From: Dehalococcoidia bacterium | GTDB taxonomy: Bacteria; Chloroflexota; Dehalococcoidia; Lucifugimonadales; SHYT01 | Reading direction: 5' to 3' | Length of the DNA: 64,000 bases | Assembly (NCBI GenBank): GCA_009693045.1 | Contig: SHXZ01000008.1 | Coordinates: forward strand, 1 to 64,000 | Shown here: in pieces, positions 36,541 through 44,518 of the stretch | Layout of the letters: each line of letters begins with the position of its first letter | How positions within the stretch are numbered: position 1 is the first letter of the stretch | Program-made: the position numbers and the translations under genes | Notes under the pieces: generated by a model | What the model was told of the DNA's origin: nothing | What the model saw: only the letters and a program-made list of their open reading frames with translations | Database searches by the model: none

Positions 36541-37785
36541 CTAGATCACCTTTTTCTGGAGCAAGTCTTTGATCTGCTGCGGGGTGAACCCGGCGACCTG
36601 GTTGTAGATCATGTCGTTGTCGTAGCCTACCGGGCCGGGACCGCGCCAGATCTTCCCCGGTGTCTCAGAGAACCTGGGTACCGGGCCAATGCCCTTCACG
36701 GTGCGCTGGAGCGAATAGTCGTACCATTCCTGGTGGACGCCGCGCGCCTGGTAGTGCGGGTCTTCGGCGATGTCCTGGGAGCTCATGACTTTGGAGCAGG
36801 CGACGCCCTTGGCGTTCAGCAGGGCGACCACCTCAAGAGCGATCTTGTCGCTGACCCAGGTGCGGAGCAGGTGGTCAAACTCCCTGCCCGGCGCGGAATC
36901 GGGGTCGCGGTGAGCGCGCTCCCACTTCTTGGCGTCCTCGCCAAACACCTCGCACACTTTCGCAAAGTCCGGCTCCGTGAGCGCGGAGATGGCCACCCAG
37001 CCGTCCAGGGCCTCGTAGGTGTCGTTGGGCTGCGTGGTGGTGGTCACGTCCCGGTTGCCCCTGCGCTTGAGGACCTTCTTCTCGCGGTGATAGATGGCAG
37101 CGACCGCGCCGCTGTGCCGCTGGATGACCTCAAACTGCGGGATGTCCAGCACCTGGCCCTCGCCGGTCTTCTGGGCGTGGATGTACGCCGCCAGGGTAGC
37201 GCTGATGGCGTGGAGCGCGGTGATGAAATCGCCGAACCACGGCGCCGTTCGGATGGGCGGGTGCGGCTCCGGCAGGCCGGTGAGGGACATGAGGCCGCCG
37301 TAGGCCTGGGCGATGGCGTCGTACGAGGGCCGGCCCATGTAGTCGGGGAGGCCCGACTGCCCGTAGCCGGATACGTGGGTGATCACAATCTTTGGATTGC
37401 GCTTGAGCACCGCCTCGTCGGTGATGCCCCACTTGCCGACGGTGCCCGGCTTGGAGCTCTCCATCCAGATGTCAAACTTTGGGATGAGCTTGTCCAGGAA
37501 GATGTCCCGACCGGCCGGCGTGCTGAGGTCCAGGCTGATGAAGAACTCGTTGTGGCGCTCGCCGGTCCAGTCGGCGCTCACGGGCTTGCCATCCGGCGTC
37601 TGGAACTTGTAGCCCGTGTACCGCCAGGGATCGCCCTCGCCTGGGCGCTCCAGGTTCACGACGAACGCGCCCTGCTCCGCGGCCAGGATGGGGGCGAACG
37701 GCTCGGCGATGTACACCCCGGACGATAGGATGCGGAGCTGCTGCAGGGAACCAAACGGCGGGGGCGCTGAGGACTGTTGAGTCAC
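36541..37785 (-). CDS. CaiB/BaiF CoA-transferase (family III), CaiB-like
   Basis: LRILSSGVYIAEPFAPILAAEQGAFVVNLERPGEGDPWR ... WMESSKPGTVGKWGITDEAVLKRNPKIVITHVSGYGQSG ... PGKIWRGPGPVGYDNDMIY. Confidence 0.92.
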   Translation of the reverse strand: MTQQSSAPPPFGSLQQLRILSSGVYIAEPFAPILAAEQGAFVVNLERPGEGDPWRYTGYKFQTPDGKPVSADWTGERHNEFFISLDLSTPAGRDIFLDKLIPKFDIWMESSKPGTVGKWGITDEAVLKRNPKIVITHVSGYGQSGLPDYMGRPSYDAIAQAYGGLMSLTGLPEPHPPIRTAPWFGDFITALHAISATLAAYIHAQKTGEGQVLDIPQFEVIQRHSGAVAAIYHREKKVLKRRGNRDVTTTTQPNDTYEALDGWVAISALTEPDFAKVCEVFGEDAKKWERAHRDPDSAPGREFDHLLRTWVSDKIALEVVALLNAKGVACSKVMSSQDIAEDPHYQARGVHQEWYDYSLQRTVKGIGPVPRFSETPGKIWRGPGPVGYDNDMIYNQVAGFTPQQIKDLLQKKVI

Positions 37786-37838: not shown

Positions 37839-37984
37839 CGCTAGTGTAGTGTTTCTAACGCTTCGTTACGTTGGATCAGGAGCAACGTCTCATCCCCACC
37901 TTAATCCTCCCCCTCAACGGGGGAGGAGATTGCTCTCCTGCGCCACTTCAAAACTAACGGAACGTCAGAGGCACTACACTAGCG
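37839..37984. mobile_element. MITE-like element, ~146 bp, imperfect terminal inverted repeats, full copy
   Basis: Left end CGCTAGTGTAGTGTTTCTAACGCTT; right end reverse complement CGCTAGTGTAGTGCCTCTGACGTTC; second copy at 44419-44518. Confidence 0.8.
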
Positions 37985-37995
37985 TACCGGTGCGG

Positions 37996-39225
37996 CTAGA
38001 TTACTCCCTTGGATTTGAGGCCGTTGATCTTGGCGCGATCCAGGCCCGCCACTTTCGTTAGCACCGCATCGTTGTCGTGGCCGACGGCTACTGACCCTCT
38101 CCAGACCTTGCCGGGCGTCTTGGAGAACCACGGCACGGGGCGCACGCCCTTCACCTTGCCCACGAGGTCGTCGTTCCACTCCTCGTGGATCTTGCGCGCT
38201 TTGAAGTGGGGGTCCTCGGCGGCCTGCTGCGGGTCGTTCACCGGGCCGCAGGGAATGGTGTTTTCGTTGAGGATGCGAACGACGTCCGCGACGGTGCGTT
38301 CGCCGACCCACTTTCGCAGCGCGCCGTCAAATTCCTGGCCCTCAGGCGAGTTCGGATTGGAAAAGGCGCCGCTCCATTTCTCGTCGCTTGGGTCCAGCCC
38401 AACGATGCTCAGGCTGCGGCGGAAGATCGGCACGGAGATTGCGCCGATGAAGAGCCAGCCGTCTTTGGCCATGAAGGTATCGTACGGCTGGAACGCGCCG
38501 GCCTTGTTGCCGGCCCGCTCGCGGACGGCGCCATCCACGAAGAACATGGGCATGGTGCCCGAGGTGATCTTGTTGATGCACTCGTACTCGGCGATGTCAA
38601 GCACCTGGCCCTTGCCGGTCCTCTCGGCGTGGATGTAGGCGGCGAGCATGCTCCACAGGGCGAACAGGGCCACCATCTTCTCCCCACCGTGCGCGGGCGC
38701 GGACACCGGGGTCTGGTCGGCCTCGCCCGTGGTGTACATCAGCCCGCCGAACGCCTGCATGACCAGGTTGGAAAGCGAGCGCTGCGTGTAGTCCGGGTCG
38801 CCGTCCTGGCCGAAGGGGGAGACGTGCACGATGACGATCTTGGGGTTCTTGGCCTTGACGGCCTCGTCGGTAATTCCCATCGCCGGATAGGTCCCCGGCT
38901 TGGAGTTCTCCACCCAAATATCGCACTGGGGAATGAGGTTGTTCAGGAAGACGTCGCGGCCTTCGGGCTTGCGCAGGTCAAGGGTGATGTAGAACGCGTT
39001 ACGGCGGTCGTGGACCCAACTGACGTTCACGCCGTTCCATGTGTAGTCCTCGTGCCGCCAGGGATCGCCCTTTCCGGGAGGTTCCACCTGAATGACCTCG
39101 GCGCCAAAGTCGGCGGCTAAGTGAGCGGCGTAAGGCCCGGTGATGTGCGTGCCCGTTGACAGCACTCGCACACCCTTCAACGCCCCGAACGACTCCGGTA
39201 CGATGCTCGGCGCTCTGTTCGGCAT
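37996..39225 (-). CDS. CaiB/BaiF CoA-transferase (family III), CaiB-like
   Basis: VRVLSTGTHITGPYAAHLAADFGAEVIQVEPPGKGDPWRHEDYTWNGVNVSWVHDRRNAFYITLDLRKPEGRDVF ... WVENSKPGTYPAMGITDEAV. Confidence 0.92.
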   Translation of the reverse strand: MPNRAPSIVPESFGALKGVRVLSTGTHITGPYAAHLAADFGAEVIQVEPPGKGDPWRHEDYTWNGVNVSWVHDRRNAFYITLDLRKPEGRDVFLNNLIPQCDIWVENSKPGTYPAMGITDEAVKAKNPKIVIVHVSPFGQDGDPDYTQRSLSNLVMQAFGGLMYTTGEADQTPVSAPAHGGEKMVALFALWSMLAAYIHAERTGKGQVLDIAEYECINKITSGTMPMFFVDGAVRERAGNKAGAFQPYDTFMAKDGWLFIGAISVPIFRRSLSIVGLDPSDEKWSGAFSNPNSPEGQEFDGALRKWVGERTVADVVRILNENTIPCGPVNDPQQAAEDPHFKARKIHEEWNDDLVGKVKGVRPVPWFSKTPGKVWRGSVAVGHDNDAVLTKVAGLDRAKINGLKSKGVI

Positions 39226-39834
39226 GGTTCCTCCCACCAGCAAGGTTCAAGGCTCCCAAAGTTCGGAGTCATTATACCTAGAACGCTCAAAAAGGGTAGT
39301 GGGCGCGAGGCGTGCCTTGCCTTTTTACCGGCGCACTGTTGAACGTCTGCACAACCCGTTCGATTCGCGTTTGTTTGCGGCTTGGGGCGAATCGTCCGCG
39401 GCTGGCCCGCGATTTGATTGCGCGGAAGGGCGCATTTGTTCATGATGCCTCGGTAACCTGGTGGTGATGGCCTGGAAAGCCACCGCGAGCCCGTTTATTT
39501 ATTCGTAGGGGGCGGCGGGCCGGGCTGGGGTAGGGGCGGGGCATGCCTCACCTCTACGCACTGCCGCACCGGGACAGTGGTTACGCTTCCAGGCTAGGGC
39601 ACGCCGGGTGGAATGCGCAAGGGGAGGGTGGCAGGCAGGGTGGGGGATAGGGGCGGGTGTGCCTCGCCCCCTGTGGCGCACAGCCAAACGATTTGCCTCG
39701 GATGCGCACGCTCCCGTACACTAAGCGCATATGACCGTACGTCTTGCGACACGCTGCCCGTGGACAGTCCGGGCAGAGCAGACTGGCAGAACACCGTGAG
39801 CTCTGGGCAACCACCGGCTGGAATAAGCCGCGGG

Positions 39835-41097
39835 ATGCGGCGGAAGCCACGTCTCTACTACGGCTGGGTCATCGTCGGCGTCATTTTCTTGACGAGCCTG
39901 GCCGCCACCGTTCAGCTCAACCCCACCATCAGCGTGTTCGTTAAGCCCATCACGATGGAGTTCGGCTGGAGCCGCTCCGCTCTGGCGGGCGCCCTCACCA
40001 TCGGTACGATCCTGGGCGGGATACTCGCGGCTGCCGTCGGGCCGCTGGTAGACCGGTTCGGCGGACGGTGGGTGCTGTTTGGCGGGTTCCTAGTCCTTGG
40101 CGGTCTGCTGATCGCCTTCAGCTTCATCAATGCTCTGTGGCACTTCTACGCCATCGCCATCACCACGCGGATGCTCATTCAGGGCGTGATCGGCATCACC
40201 AACAACGTGGCGGTGGCTAAGTGGTTCGTGCGGCAACGCGGGCGGGCGGTGGGCCTTGCCAGCCTTGGGCAGCGAGTGGGCAACGGGGTGACGCCGTACT
40301 TTGCCCAGGCGTTCATCGGGGCGCACGGCTGGCGGACGGCCATCGTGGCGGTGGGGCTGTACGCGTGGGGGCTGTCGCTGGCGCCGGTGCTGCTGTGGCT
40401 GAGGAGGCAGCCGGAGGACATGGGGCTGCTGGCCGACGGCGCGCCGCCGGAGCGTGACGGGGCGCGAACGGCGAGCGCGGGGCCTCGGGTGGACGGGGCC
40501 GCCCAGCCGGAGGTATCGTTCACGCTGAGGGAGGCGCTGCGCGCGCCGGTTTTCTACGTCCTCTTGGTCTCGGCGGCGTTCAGCGTGTTTGCGGGGGCGG
40601 GCATCAACTTCAACATGCAGCCTCTGTTCACGGACCGGGGACTCAGCGCCTCGCAGGGCGCGCTGGTGATCGCCATCTGGTCGTTCACCGGCATACCGGC
40701 GTCGGTGATTGCGGGTCTCCTGGCGGAGCGGCTTGCTGGCCGGCACATGCTCGCGTTGATCTATCTGGGAGTCGCCGGCGGCATCGTGCTTCTAACGCAG
40801 GTCAATTCCATGAACAGCGCGCTGCTGTTTGCGTTGGTGCACGGGTCGTTCTTTGGCGGGATGCTGCTGCTGCAGAACCTGATCTACGCCGACTACTTTG
40901 GGCGGAGGTCGCTGGGGTCTATTCGTGGCTTCACGACGCCCTTCCAGATGGCGGCGAACGCCGTAGGCCCCCTGGCGGGCGCGCTGGTGTACGACCTGAC
41001 GGGCGGGTACACGCCCATCCTGGTGGTGTTTACGGCGCTGATGGCGGTGTCCGCGCTGGCGATGGTGGTGGCGAAGCCGCCTGTCAGGGCGGCGTAA
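39835..41097 (+). CDS. MFS transporter
   Basis: YYGWVIVGVIFLTSLAATVQLNPTISVFVKPITMEFGWSRSALAGALTIGTILGGILAAAVGPLVDRFGGRWV; ~12 TM helices. Confidence 0.9.
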   Translation: MRRKPRLYYGWVIVGVIFLTSLAATVQLNPTISVFVKPITMEFGWSRSALAGALTIGTILGGILAAAVGPLVDRFGGRWVLFGGFLVLGGLLIAFSFINALWHFYAIAITTRMLIQGVIGITNNVAVAKWFVRQRGRAVGLASLGQRVGNGVTPYFAQAFIGAHGWRTAIVAVGLYAWGLSLAPVLLWLRRQPEDMGLLADGAPPERDGARTASAGPRVDGAAQPEVSFTLREALRAPVFYVLLVSAAFSVFAGAGINFNMQPLFTDRGLSASQGALVIAIWSFTGIPASVIAGLLAERLAGRHMLALIYLGVAGGIVLLTQVNSMNSALLFALVHGSFFGGMLLLQNLIYADYFGRRSLGSIRGFTTPFQMAANAVGPLAGALVYDLTGGYTPILVVFTALMAVSALAMVVAKPPVRAA

Positions 41098-41110
41098 GGT
41101 GGCATAGAGG

Positions 41111-41134
41111 GTAGGGGCGCAGCATGCTGCGCCC
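41111..41134. repeat. Degenerate member of the GTAGGGGC hairpin family
   Basis: GTAGGGGCGCAGCATGCTGCGCCC; the inner 20 bp are a perfect palindrome. Confidence 0.6.
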
Positions 41135-41347
41135 GGTCGTCGACTCACCAACCCCTCTCCACTTTATGTGGAGAGGGGAATTGAGTAACCAGTGAGACGG
41201 TATCCACCAGGTACGGCATCCTTGCCAAAAAAGTGTCGTGAAATGAGCAATGGGAGAGGAGGAAGCTCTTGACCCTCTCCCGTTGGGCCTGTCCTTGACC
41301 CTGAGCGCAGCGAAGGAGAAGGAAGAGGGTTAGAGCCTGCCCCGAGC

Positions 41348-41525
41348 TTACCGAGGAGGTGAGGGTCGGGGCGCGAAGACCTGGATGCGGTTGTTACCCT
41401 GATCCGCCACGTACACGTCTCCCCTGGCGTCCACCGCCAAGCCCCTGGGACCCTCGCTGCCCCACTTGGCCAGGAACTGGCCTGTGGCGCTGAACTTCTG
41501 GATGCGGTTGTTCTCCTCGTCTACC
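41348..41525 (-). pseudogene. C-terminal fragment of an NHL-repeat protein
   Basis: VDEENNRIQKFSATGQFLAKWGSEGPRGLAVDARGDVYVADQGNNRIQVFAPRPSPPR*; no upstream NHL repeats remain. Confidence 0.7.
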
Positions 41526-43179
41526 ACTGATCCTTGAACGGGAGCCTCTCAACTCCACCGCGAAGAGCCAGTTCAATCGCCCGTTCCGGCGTCATCGTCT
41601 TATCCGTATAAATCGCCTGAAGATATGGTTCCAAAAGCGTCCCGATGTCAGTGCCAAGCGCGACAGCAAGCCTCCCAAGCAGTTCAGCACCCACAAGCCC
41701 TTGAATGGCGTTTATCGCCTTTTCCTTGTTCGCCGCCACCGCCTGCAACGCTACTTTCTGCCCCGCCGCCGTCGCGCCCGCCGACGCCGACGTCGCGGCC
41801 CCTCCGCCCCCACGAGTCACCCGATCCGCGATCTCAAAGTCTATCGCCCTTCGCTCGCCTTCGGGTATCTGCGCTTTGAGCGCGCCCAGCGCGACCTGCA
41901 CCGCCTCAGCCATCCCCAACCCCTTACCCACCTCGATCGTCCCATTTGCCTCTACAATGAGTTTGTTCAGGTCAATGTTGTTCGCATCGGCGTATTTCTT
42001 CAACAAGTCAAAGTTCGGAATCTTCGCCGCGTTAATAAGCAACTTCTGTGCCAGCACCTTGTCCAACGCCCGCAAATTAACTGCATCGCTCTTCACAGAA
42101 TCGCCATAAAAGTCAAGCACCGCCTGTTTAGCCCACAAAGCAATCGTTTCAGGGGTAATGTCAGCAACCCCAGCGCCAGAGACGAAATTATAGCCTGTTA
42201 GCCCGTTGTCAGCCGATGGAAGAGGCGTCAGTCGAGTCAATTTGGCGTTGACAATCTGGAATATCTTCGCCAGGTCTTCGGGAGAACTCTTCCCCACCTT
42301 TTCGCTCTGCGCCCACAAGGGATCAACCCTCCGCATCTCGGCAATAGCGCTCTTAATCGCATCCCCCACTCCTTCCGAGCCAGATGCGAGTTCTGTTAGC
42401 TGGGTACGCATGAAGAACGATACCGCGCTGTCTACCCCCCCCTCGAAGAAAAAGGGCCGATTTCTCAAAAGGGCCTTGAGTTGGGCTGTATAGTCCACGC
42501 TCTGCTTCAACATCCGCAGGCGTGTCGCGTCATTGGTCACGTTCTCCGCAATCCAGTAATTCGCCGCAGCTTGTATGGCGCTGTTCACATGACCATCAAA
42601 CATCGCAGGTTTCATCCGCCCCGTGCGGAGCAAAAAGGCTGCGATACGCGGCTCAAGAATGTCGCCTTTCTCTAGTTTACCCGCAGCAAAGGCGGCCATG
42701 TCGTCCTTCTCGTCCCCAGTCATTGGCCTGCCGAACATACTACGGAACGACGTTTGGTCTTGCGTGGCTTGCTGCGATGGAGTCTCTACCTTATCAGCGT
42801 GAAGAGCCAATTGGTACGCTTGATCGTCGACCCTGTACACGTTCCCCTGGGCGTCCACCGCAGCTTTGGCGTCGGCGGCGGCCTTGGCGTCGGCTGCGGC
42901 CTTGGCAGATGAGGCTGAAGCCGCGACCGGAGCGGGTGGGGCAGAGGGAGGGCTAGTTATTGGAGGAGTGCTACGAGAAGCAACAGGAGCTGGCGCGCTT
43001 GACCCTTGCTCAGTTTTGGTTCCGACCGTGAAGACCACGATCACCACAGCGACAAGAGCGCCAATAGCAGCCAGAGCCACCAGCACTATGGGCCAGTTCA
43101 CTATCTGGTGTTGGACAACGATAGAAGACGGGTTATCCCCCGCTTGGGTAACCTTTGGCTCCCGTCTATTTTGGTCCAT
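41521..43179 (-). CDS. Uncharacterised membrane-anchored protein (552 aa)
   Basis: N-terminal TM (VNWPIVLVALAAIGALVAVVIVVFTVG), Pro/Ser/Ala-rich linker with (KAAADA)n, then a helical region with no family recognised. Confidence 0.7.
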   Translation of the reverse strand: MDQNRREPKVTQAGDNPSSIVVQHQIVNWPIVLVALAAIGALVAVVIVVFTVGTKTEQGSSAPAPVASRSTPPITSPPSAPPAPVAASASSAKAAADAKAAADAKAAVDAQGNVYRVDDQAYQLALHADKVETPSQQATQDQTSFRSMFGRPMTGDEKDDMAAFAAGKLEKGDILEPRIAAFLLRTGRMKPAMFDGHVNSAIQAAANYWIAENVTNDATRLRMLKQSVDYTAQLKALLRNRPFFFEGGVDSAVSFFMRTQLTELASGSEGVGDAIKSAIAEMRRVDPLWAQSEKVGKSSPEDLAKIFQIVNAKLTRLTPLPSADNGLTGYNFVSGAGVADITPETIALWAKQAVLDFYGDSVKSDAVNLRALDKVLAQKLLINAAKIPNFDLLKKYADANNIDLNKLIVEANGTIEVGKGLGMAEAVQVALGALKAQIPEGERRAIDFEIADRVTRGGGGAATSASAGATAAGQKVALQAVAANKEKAINAIQGLVGAELLGRLAVALGTDIGTLLEPYLQAIYTDKTMTPERAIELALRGGVERLPFKDQW

Positions 43180-43276
43180 CGTAGCACTCGCTGCCGTGGT
43201 GCAAGAATACGGGCCTGTCTCGCTCTGGATTAATCATGATTATTGACCTTTGTGCTTTGTCTTACAACCTGGTGCG

Positions 43277-44353
43277 CTACGCAGTTAGCAGCGCCTCGCA
43301 AAACCGCGCGGCGTCCATCAGGTCGGGGATGGAGACTGACTCGCGGACGGTGTGCATGCCCGTCGTCGCGACGCCGACGACCACGCTCCGAACGCCGTGC
43401 AACGCGAAGACGTTAGCGTCGGTGCCGCCGCCGGAGGGGGCGAGCGTGGCCTCTTTGCCCATCCCCTTCATCACGCTCACCACGCGAGCCACCAGCGGGT
43501 CGTCCGGCCTCAGGTTGTAGCCCTGGAACCCCGGCCTGAGAACCTCCTGGATGCGCGCCTCGGGGTACCGCTGGCGAATCGCGGAGACGGCGTCCAGGAC
43601 CTGGCGGCGGACGCGCTCCGACGTTTGCGGGTTGCGGCTGCGGAACTCGCCGGTGACCTCGGCGTGCTCCGGCACGGCGTTCCGGACGCTGCCGCCCGTG
43701 ATCGTCCCGATGTTGAAGGTCGTTTCGGGGTCCAGGCGGCCCTGGGGCAGGCTGGCGACCAGCTCGGCGGCGATGCGGATGGCGGAAATCCCCTTCTCCG
43801 GCTCCACGCCGGCGTGGGCGGCGCGGCCGGTGATCGTGAAGTCCACGTAGACGTAGGTTGGGCTGCCGGTGGTGACCTTGGTGACCGCGCCCTCGCCGTC
43901 AAACACAACCGCCTCTTTGGCGCGCACAAGCGAGAAGTCCAGGTTCTGCGAGCCGACGAGGCCGGTCTCCTCCTGCCGCGTGAGCACCACCTGGACCGGG
44001 CGCCTGCGCGCGCCGCGCTCTTTCAGCGACGTCAACGCCTCCAGAATCGCCGTGATGCCTGCCTTGCAGTCGCCGCCGACGATGGTTGAGCCGTCCGAGG
44101 CGATCCGGTCGCCGTCCACCAGGGGGTTGATGCCGCGGCCCGGCTCCACGGTGTCCATGTGGGCCGACAGCATGAGCGGCGCTTCGCCCGGCTCCGAGGC
44201 GATGACGTTGCCGTGCTTGTCGCGGGCGACGCTGAGGCCGAGCGCCTCAAGGCGTCGCTGGAGCTCGCGCGCGACCTGCTCTTCCTCGCCGGTGGGGCTG
44301 TCAATTCTTGCCAGGTCGCAGAAGGTCTTCACCAGGCGCTCGCGGTTGGCCAT
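43277..44353 (-). CDS. M20/M42 family metallopeptidase, peptidase T-like
   Basis: LMLSAHMDTVEPGRGINPLVDGDRIASDGSTIVGGDCKAGITAILEAL ... VLTRQEETGLVGSQNLDFS ... GGGTDANVFALHGVRSVVVG. Confidence 0.9.
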   Translation of the reverse strand: MANRERLVKTFCDLARIDSPTGEEEQVARELQRRLEALGLSVARDKHGNVIASEPGEAPLMLSAHMDTVEPGRGINPLVDGDRIASDGSTIVGGDCKAGITAILEALTSLKERGARRRPVQVVLTRQEETGLVGSQNLDFSLVRAKEAVVFDGEGAVTKVTTGSPTYVYVDFTITGRAAHAGVEPEKGISAIRIAAELVASLPQGRLDPETTFNIGTITGGSVRNAVPEHAEVTGEFRSRNPQTSERVRRQVLDAVSAIRQRYPEARIQEVLRPGFQGYNLRPDDPLVARVVSVMKGMGKEATLAPSGGGTDANVFALHGVRSVVVGVATTGMHTVRESVSIPDLMDAARFCEALLTA

Positions 44354-44418
44354 CTTCGCCTCCTACGGGGACGCTGCGGGCTTGACGCCGCACCAGCATA
44401 GTAGACGGCGTGAGGGAA

Positions 44419-44518
44419 CGCTAGTGTAGTGTTTCTAACGCTTCGTTACGTTGGATTAGAAGCAATGTCTCACCCCCACCTTAATCCTCCTCCTCAACGG
44501 GGGAGGAGATTGCGCCAC
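44419..44518. mobile_element. Second, 3'-truncated copy of the 37839-37984 MITE-like element
   Basis: CGCTAGTGTAGTGTTTCTAACGCTTCGTTACGTTGGATTAGAAGCAATGTCTCACCCCCACCTTAATCCTCCTCCTCAACGGGGGAGGAGATTGCGCCAC aligns with five transitions and one 8-bp deletion. Confidence 0.82.

Follow-up and report, generated by a model that had tools for sequence, protein, structure and literature searches.

Short intergenic sequences that recur within a genome may be mobile elements, structured RNAs or other dispersed repeats, and two such sequences raise this question in the DNA considered here. The window, a stretch of 64,000 nucleotides from a Dehalococcoidia (Chloroflexota) MAG of 1.85 Mb (15 contigs, 82.8% complete), carries two nearly identical intergenic segments, which a first-pass annotation based on the letters alone had taken for one full and one truncated copy of a MITE-like, non-autonomous element with terminal inverted repeats (TIRs). 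What the segments are, and from which source they arose, was examined from their structure, their other copies and relatives, their target sites and the elements that carry the same termini.

Structure and genomic context of the two segments

The two segments lie at 37839-37984 (copy 1) and 44419-44518 (copy 2), and with 12 copies in the genome their near-identity is not a matter of chance. Copy 1 is situated, as had been proposed, between two CoA-transferase family III genes, both on the minus strand: one at 37996..39243 (PF02515, 304.5 bits), with its stop codon about 14 bp from the copy, and one at 36541..37785 (PF02515, 292.4 bits) downstream of the copy. Copy 2 is found about 67 bp upstream of the predicted start of an M20-type peptidase gene on the minus strand (43277..44353; PF01546/PF07687).

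The inverted termini of copy 1 form arms of 46 nt that are 74% complementary, and the window contains their 13-nt core, CGCTAGTGTAGTG, exactly three times, in each case at an end of copy 1 or copy 2. Comparison with the relatives suggests that the element proper of copy 1 is the 136 bp at 37844-37979, a refinement of the 37839-37984 given at first. A TA is duplicated at its edges (37842-37843 and 37980-37981), inside CTAG on either side, and together with what remains of the two CTAG targets the full MITE spans 37841..37982; the 'CG' at either outer edge is taken for flanking DNA outside the TIR, even though G is favoured at this position in the window's family (15/21 termini). With 136 bp between the TAs, no coding capacity and terminal inverted repeats, the element lies within the size taken here for a MITE (less than about 400 bp). 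Copy 2 (44419..44518, with its CTAG at 44421-44424) differs from copy 1 by five transitions and by the loss of 8 bp between TGC repeats; its right end is missing, and the homology with copy 1 ceases at about 44518, all as originally described.

Copies in the genome and their ages

A search of the whole genome with the 146 bp of copy 1 identified 12 copies on 8 contigs, with identities of 74-100%, and one extra match that consists of the internal hairpin only. Most of the copies end at the TIRs and a few are truncated or decayed; the best-preserved termini read CTAGTGTAGTG, while those of several copies have decayed. The family comprises the 136-bp short form and a long form with an extra block resembling CCCTTCGCTTCGCTCGAGGGCAGG, the latter represented at C5:70124, C11:13287 and C1:16511. 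Identities to the consensus, in which a few flanking bases are counted, extend from 78% to 95%, which indicates copies of different ages. The suggestion that the element moved fairly recently holds for a part of the family, as five copies share 89-95% identity with copy 1, but the others reach only 74-81%, and this range of identities argues for amplification over a long time. A long-form copy (C1:16511-16679) and a short-form copy (C1:16968-17113) were also observed 288 bp apart in the same orientation (L076).

Relatives in other genomes

Had the two segments been the only copies, with no TIR-bounded homologues elsewhere, the MITE reading would have been in difficulty; besides the 12 copies, TIR-bounded relatives were found. 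Other genomes of the same order and class contain short elements (87-243 bp) with CTAGTGTAGTG ends and different interiors. When 250 genomes of the order were searched for the exact right end of the family in the window, the window's own genome (G000) was the only one to carry it. A TIR scan of IMG/VR gave no match, and on that scan there is no sign of viral carriage of the element. Two abutting elements with one CTAG in common were noted at L067:1-200 (G059 C126), as if the target that borders one of them had received the other.

Full-length IS630 elements with the same termini

The first-pass annotation saw no transposase gene in the window, and none of the IS630 kind is present there. A search of the window's own genome, as represented by an assembly that is 82.8% complete, likewise gave no IS630 transposase or DDE_3 domain; multicopy insertion sequences are often missing from MAGs. 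A search for transposases flanked by these termini, which had been advised at the outset, identified two elements in other Dehalococcoidia, L151 (PUON01000010.1; 1125 bp, 359-aa ORF) and L119 (1211 bp, CTAGTGTAGTG ends, 387-aa transposase). Both share the termini of the MITE, and their transposases match NF033545, the NCBIfam IS630 transposase model, with 295.5 and 248.8 bits, respectively (cut-off 100 bits), and PF13358 (DDE_3) above its cut-off, which places these autonomous elements in the IS630 family. A transposase-bearing element with exactly the right end of the window's family was looked for and none was found. The L151 transposase had no match by sequence in the PDB, and a search of one literature collection found no paper on IS630 insertion sequences in Dehalococcoidia.

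The ORF of L151 continues across the right TIR and is closed by the TAG within the terminal CTAG, the end reading GCT AAC GAA GCG TTA GAG ACA CTA CAC TAG (ANEALETLH*). Further relatives were obtained by a class-wide search. Among the elements with a readable right end, the stop codon is supplied by CTAG in 13 (L155, which is L151, L156, L157, L159-L162, L164, L166, L169, L170, L172 and L120), L169 being counted on its CTAG ending with no downstream TIR detected, while five elements have internal stops (L119, L132, L163, L168 and L177). The CTAG-stop transposase genes include a subgroup with CTAGTGTCCTGA ends.

MITE ends as remnants of an IS630 element

The left end of the MITE is identical to the right end of L151 at 31/36 nt and, in the frame of L151, reads AAC GAA GCG TTA GAA ACA CTA CAC TAG (NEALETLH*), its stop codon again being the TAG of the CTAG target. 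The left terminal repeat of copy 1 (37841..37867, minus strand) is thus a relic of the 3' end of a transposase gene of the IS630 family. The right terminal repeat (37948..37982, minus strand; CTAGTGTAGTGCCTCTGACGTTCCGTTAGTTTTGA) corresponds to the 5' end of the insertion sequence, the right end of the family being identical to the 5' end of L151 at 28/35 nt. Since one end corresponds to the 3' end of the gene and the other to the 5' end of the insertion sequence, the MITE is best described as an internally deleted relative of IS630. The same nucleotides also form the TIR, so that both transposase binding and common ancestry may account for their conservation; the claim, made from sequence, is one of shared descent of the ends and does not extend to present-day translation of the codons.

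The MITEs of four further whole genomes and of four further public MAGs likewise carry IS630 C-terminal codons at one end, which read NEALETLH*, NEALDALH*, a close variant, or CKxIYETLH*. A second MITE in the window's genome (C11:2407-2528; L075:2408-2527) has the same CTAGTGTAGTG ends and a different interior. One of its ends reads CKAI*QTLH* and resembles the C-terminus CKAIAETLH* of L162, an element of another IS630 subclade, which suggests that this MITE came from a subclade other than that of the window's family.

Target site and empty site

In the window's family, the base outside the terminal TA is C at 17/21 termini and a G next to this C is favoured (15/21 termini). In the other elements this base is C at 34/34 termini, a count partly biased by termini found with a pattern that includes the C, and the positions further out vary. 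The search for target duplications and empty sites was successful in part: the TA is duplicated at copy 1 and a sister MITE provides an empty site, but none was obtained for the copies in the window's genome. The sister MITE, 120 bp long, interrupts an IS481-type transposase ORF in Dehalococcoidia Kmv37 (L149). Joining its flanks at a single CTAG restores the reading frame, the IS481 model aligns across the junction, and the joined frame is 60-62% identical, ungapped over 87 residues, to three intact homologues. The same joining of flanks at the copies in the window's genome gave no convincing interrupted gene, the spanning frames being short or situated upstream of starts. Members of the IS630/Tc1/mariner family move by cut-and-paste into TA, which is duplicated, and IS630 prefers a TA within 5'-CTAG-3' (PMC2170065 and the title of Tenzen and Ohtsubo cited there). 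The empty site of L149 fits this chemistry.

The internal hairpin

The interior of copy 1 includes a hairpin, TCCTCCCCC-TCAAC-GGGGGAGGA (37905..37927), which relatives also carry as an independent dispersed repeat. This CCTCCCCC/GGGGGAGG hairpin was not seen in the insertion sequence, and many genomes of the order have it by itself, with no CTAG termini around it. In the window's genome, 9/10 hairpins (with up to 2 mismatches) are inside MITE copies and one exact match, at C10:87846, stands alone. This distribution suggests that the hairpin was acquired by the element and subsequently spread by it. In the relatives (L015-L032), the hairpin core CCCCACCTTAATCCTCCCCC...GGGGGAGGA is dispersed and often lies near a second hairpin (CCCCCATCCTAACCTTCCCCC).

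Origin of the element and alternative explanations

The first-pass reading as a MITE is borne out by the 12 copies, the TIR-bounded relatives and the transposase-bearing elements with the same termini, and the segments are almost certainly copies of a MITE family that arose by internal deletion of an IS630-family (Tc1/mariner-like) insertion sequence, was inserted at the TA of CTAG and would have been moved in trans. An internal deletion of an IS630 element would have left the 3' end of the lost transposase gene at the left and the 5' end of the insertion sequence at the right, and the DNA between them would have come to include the captured hairpin. An IS630 transposase supplied in trans would bind both ends of the MITE, cut the element out and paste it into the TA of a CTAG, with duplication of the TA.

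A repeat of this kind could also be a structured intergenic RNA or a REP-like terminator repeat, kept for its hairpin and not a transposon. Such a repeat would account for the fold of the strand, which is much stronger than that of shuffled sequences (z = -6.58), for the stand-alone occurrence of the hairpin in relatives, and for the position of copy 1 between same-strand genes just after a stop codon. However, an Rfam scan of the window gave 0 matches above the gathering threshold, the match of both termini to IS630 ends already disfavours this explanation, and the precise CTAG/TA junctions and the clean empty site of the sister element are those of a transposon. A hairpin repeat or structured RNA is thus very unlikely, and as an explanation of the whole element it was rejected on the IS630-derived termini and the lack of an Rfam match. 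A secondary regulatory effect of the repeat is possible even if it is a transposon.

It is less probable still, to the point of being barely credible, that the termini are alike by convergence or belong to another family that targets TA or CTAG, such as the IS5/IS427 group. IS870 is placed in the IS5 family. Judging from a title cited in PMC6471742 (Fournier et al. 1993), this element of Agrobacterium also requires a CTAG target, which provides its large ORF with a stop codon; CTAG targeting is therefore not unique to IS630. Against such an origin, the two MITE ends match the two different ends of a single IS630 element, down to the C-terminal coding frame, and the transposases of the full-length elements are of the IS630/DDE_3 type.

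An internally deleted IS630 element being the preferred reading, a wider generalisation appears somewhat favoured: in an entire lineage of IS630 elements from Dehalococcoidia the transposase gene may end in the right TIR with its stop in CTAG, and a C-terminal 'tag' (NEALETLH*, CKxIYETLH*) would therefore stay legible in their deletion derivatives and name the source subclade of each, to which this MITE family would have added an independent hairpin that it picked up and spread.

Comparison with known systems

A parent-offspring link between a bacterial MITE and an insertion sequence was called rare in a 2007 review, with RUP as the exception (PMC2229807); the link described here is a clean one and rests on codons beyond the short TIRs. 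Stop codons supplied by the target, for which IS870 is the precedent, are seen again in about 13 Dehalococcoidia IS630 elements and would tie CTAG specificity to the expression of the transposase. When Dehalococcoidia MAGs are annotated, repeated intergenic stretches and some of the contig breaks can be attributed to these elements.

RUP of Streptococcus pneumoniae is described in the pertinent passages of PMC2229807 as a 107-bp non-coding MITE with IS630-like TIRs and a TA target, found inserted also in transposase genes of insertion sequences. The pair RUP/IS630-Spn1 resembles the present case in joining a short non-coding MITE to an IS630-family element with matching TIRs and a TA target, whereas the sequence and the host phylum differ and RUP has about 108 intergenic copies as against 12 here. 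Those passages make no mention of terminal transposase codons in RUP, while such codons are kept in the present family. The Correia elements/NEMIS of Neisseria (about 107 and 155 bp, with TA at the termini and TIRs; same passages) similarly have long and short forms that differ by an internal block, but are unrelated in sequence as judged by Rfam and by eye; no source transposase is identified for them in that review, whereas the present family has full-length relatives among IS630 elements whose ends match. IS630 of Shigella sonnei and ISY100 of Synechocystis belong to the same family and insert at TA but are autonomous, a likeness drawn from family and target rather than from TIR sequences. 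IS870 has the CTAG-supplied stop codon in common with the elements described here, but it is not a MITE and belongs to another family. Thus the element is of an ordinary kind, comparable to RUP and the Correia elements, and its ancestry is unusually clear, with the codons of its source and the stop supplied by the target both preserved.
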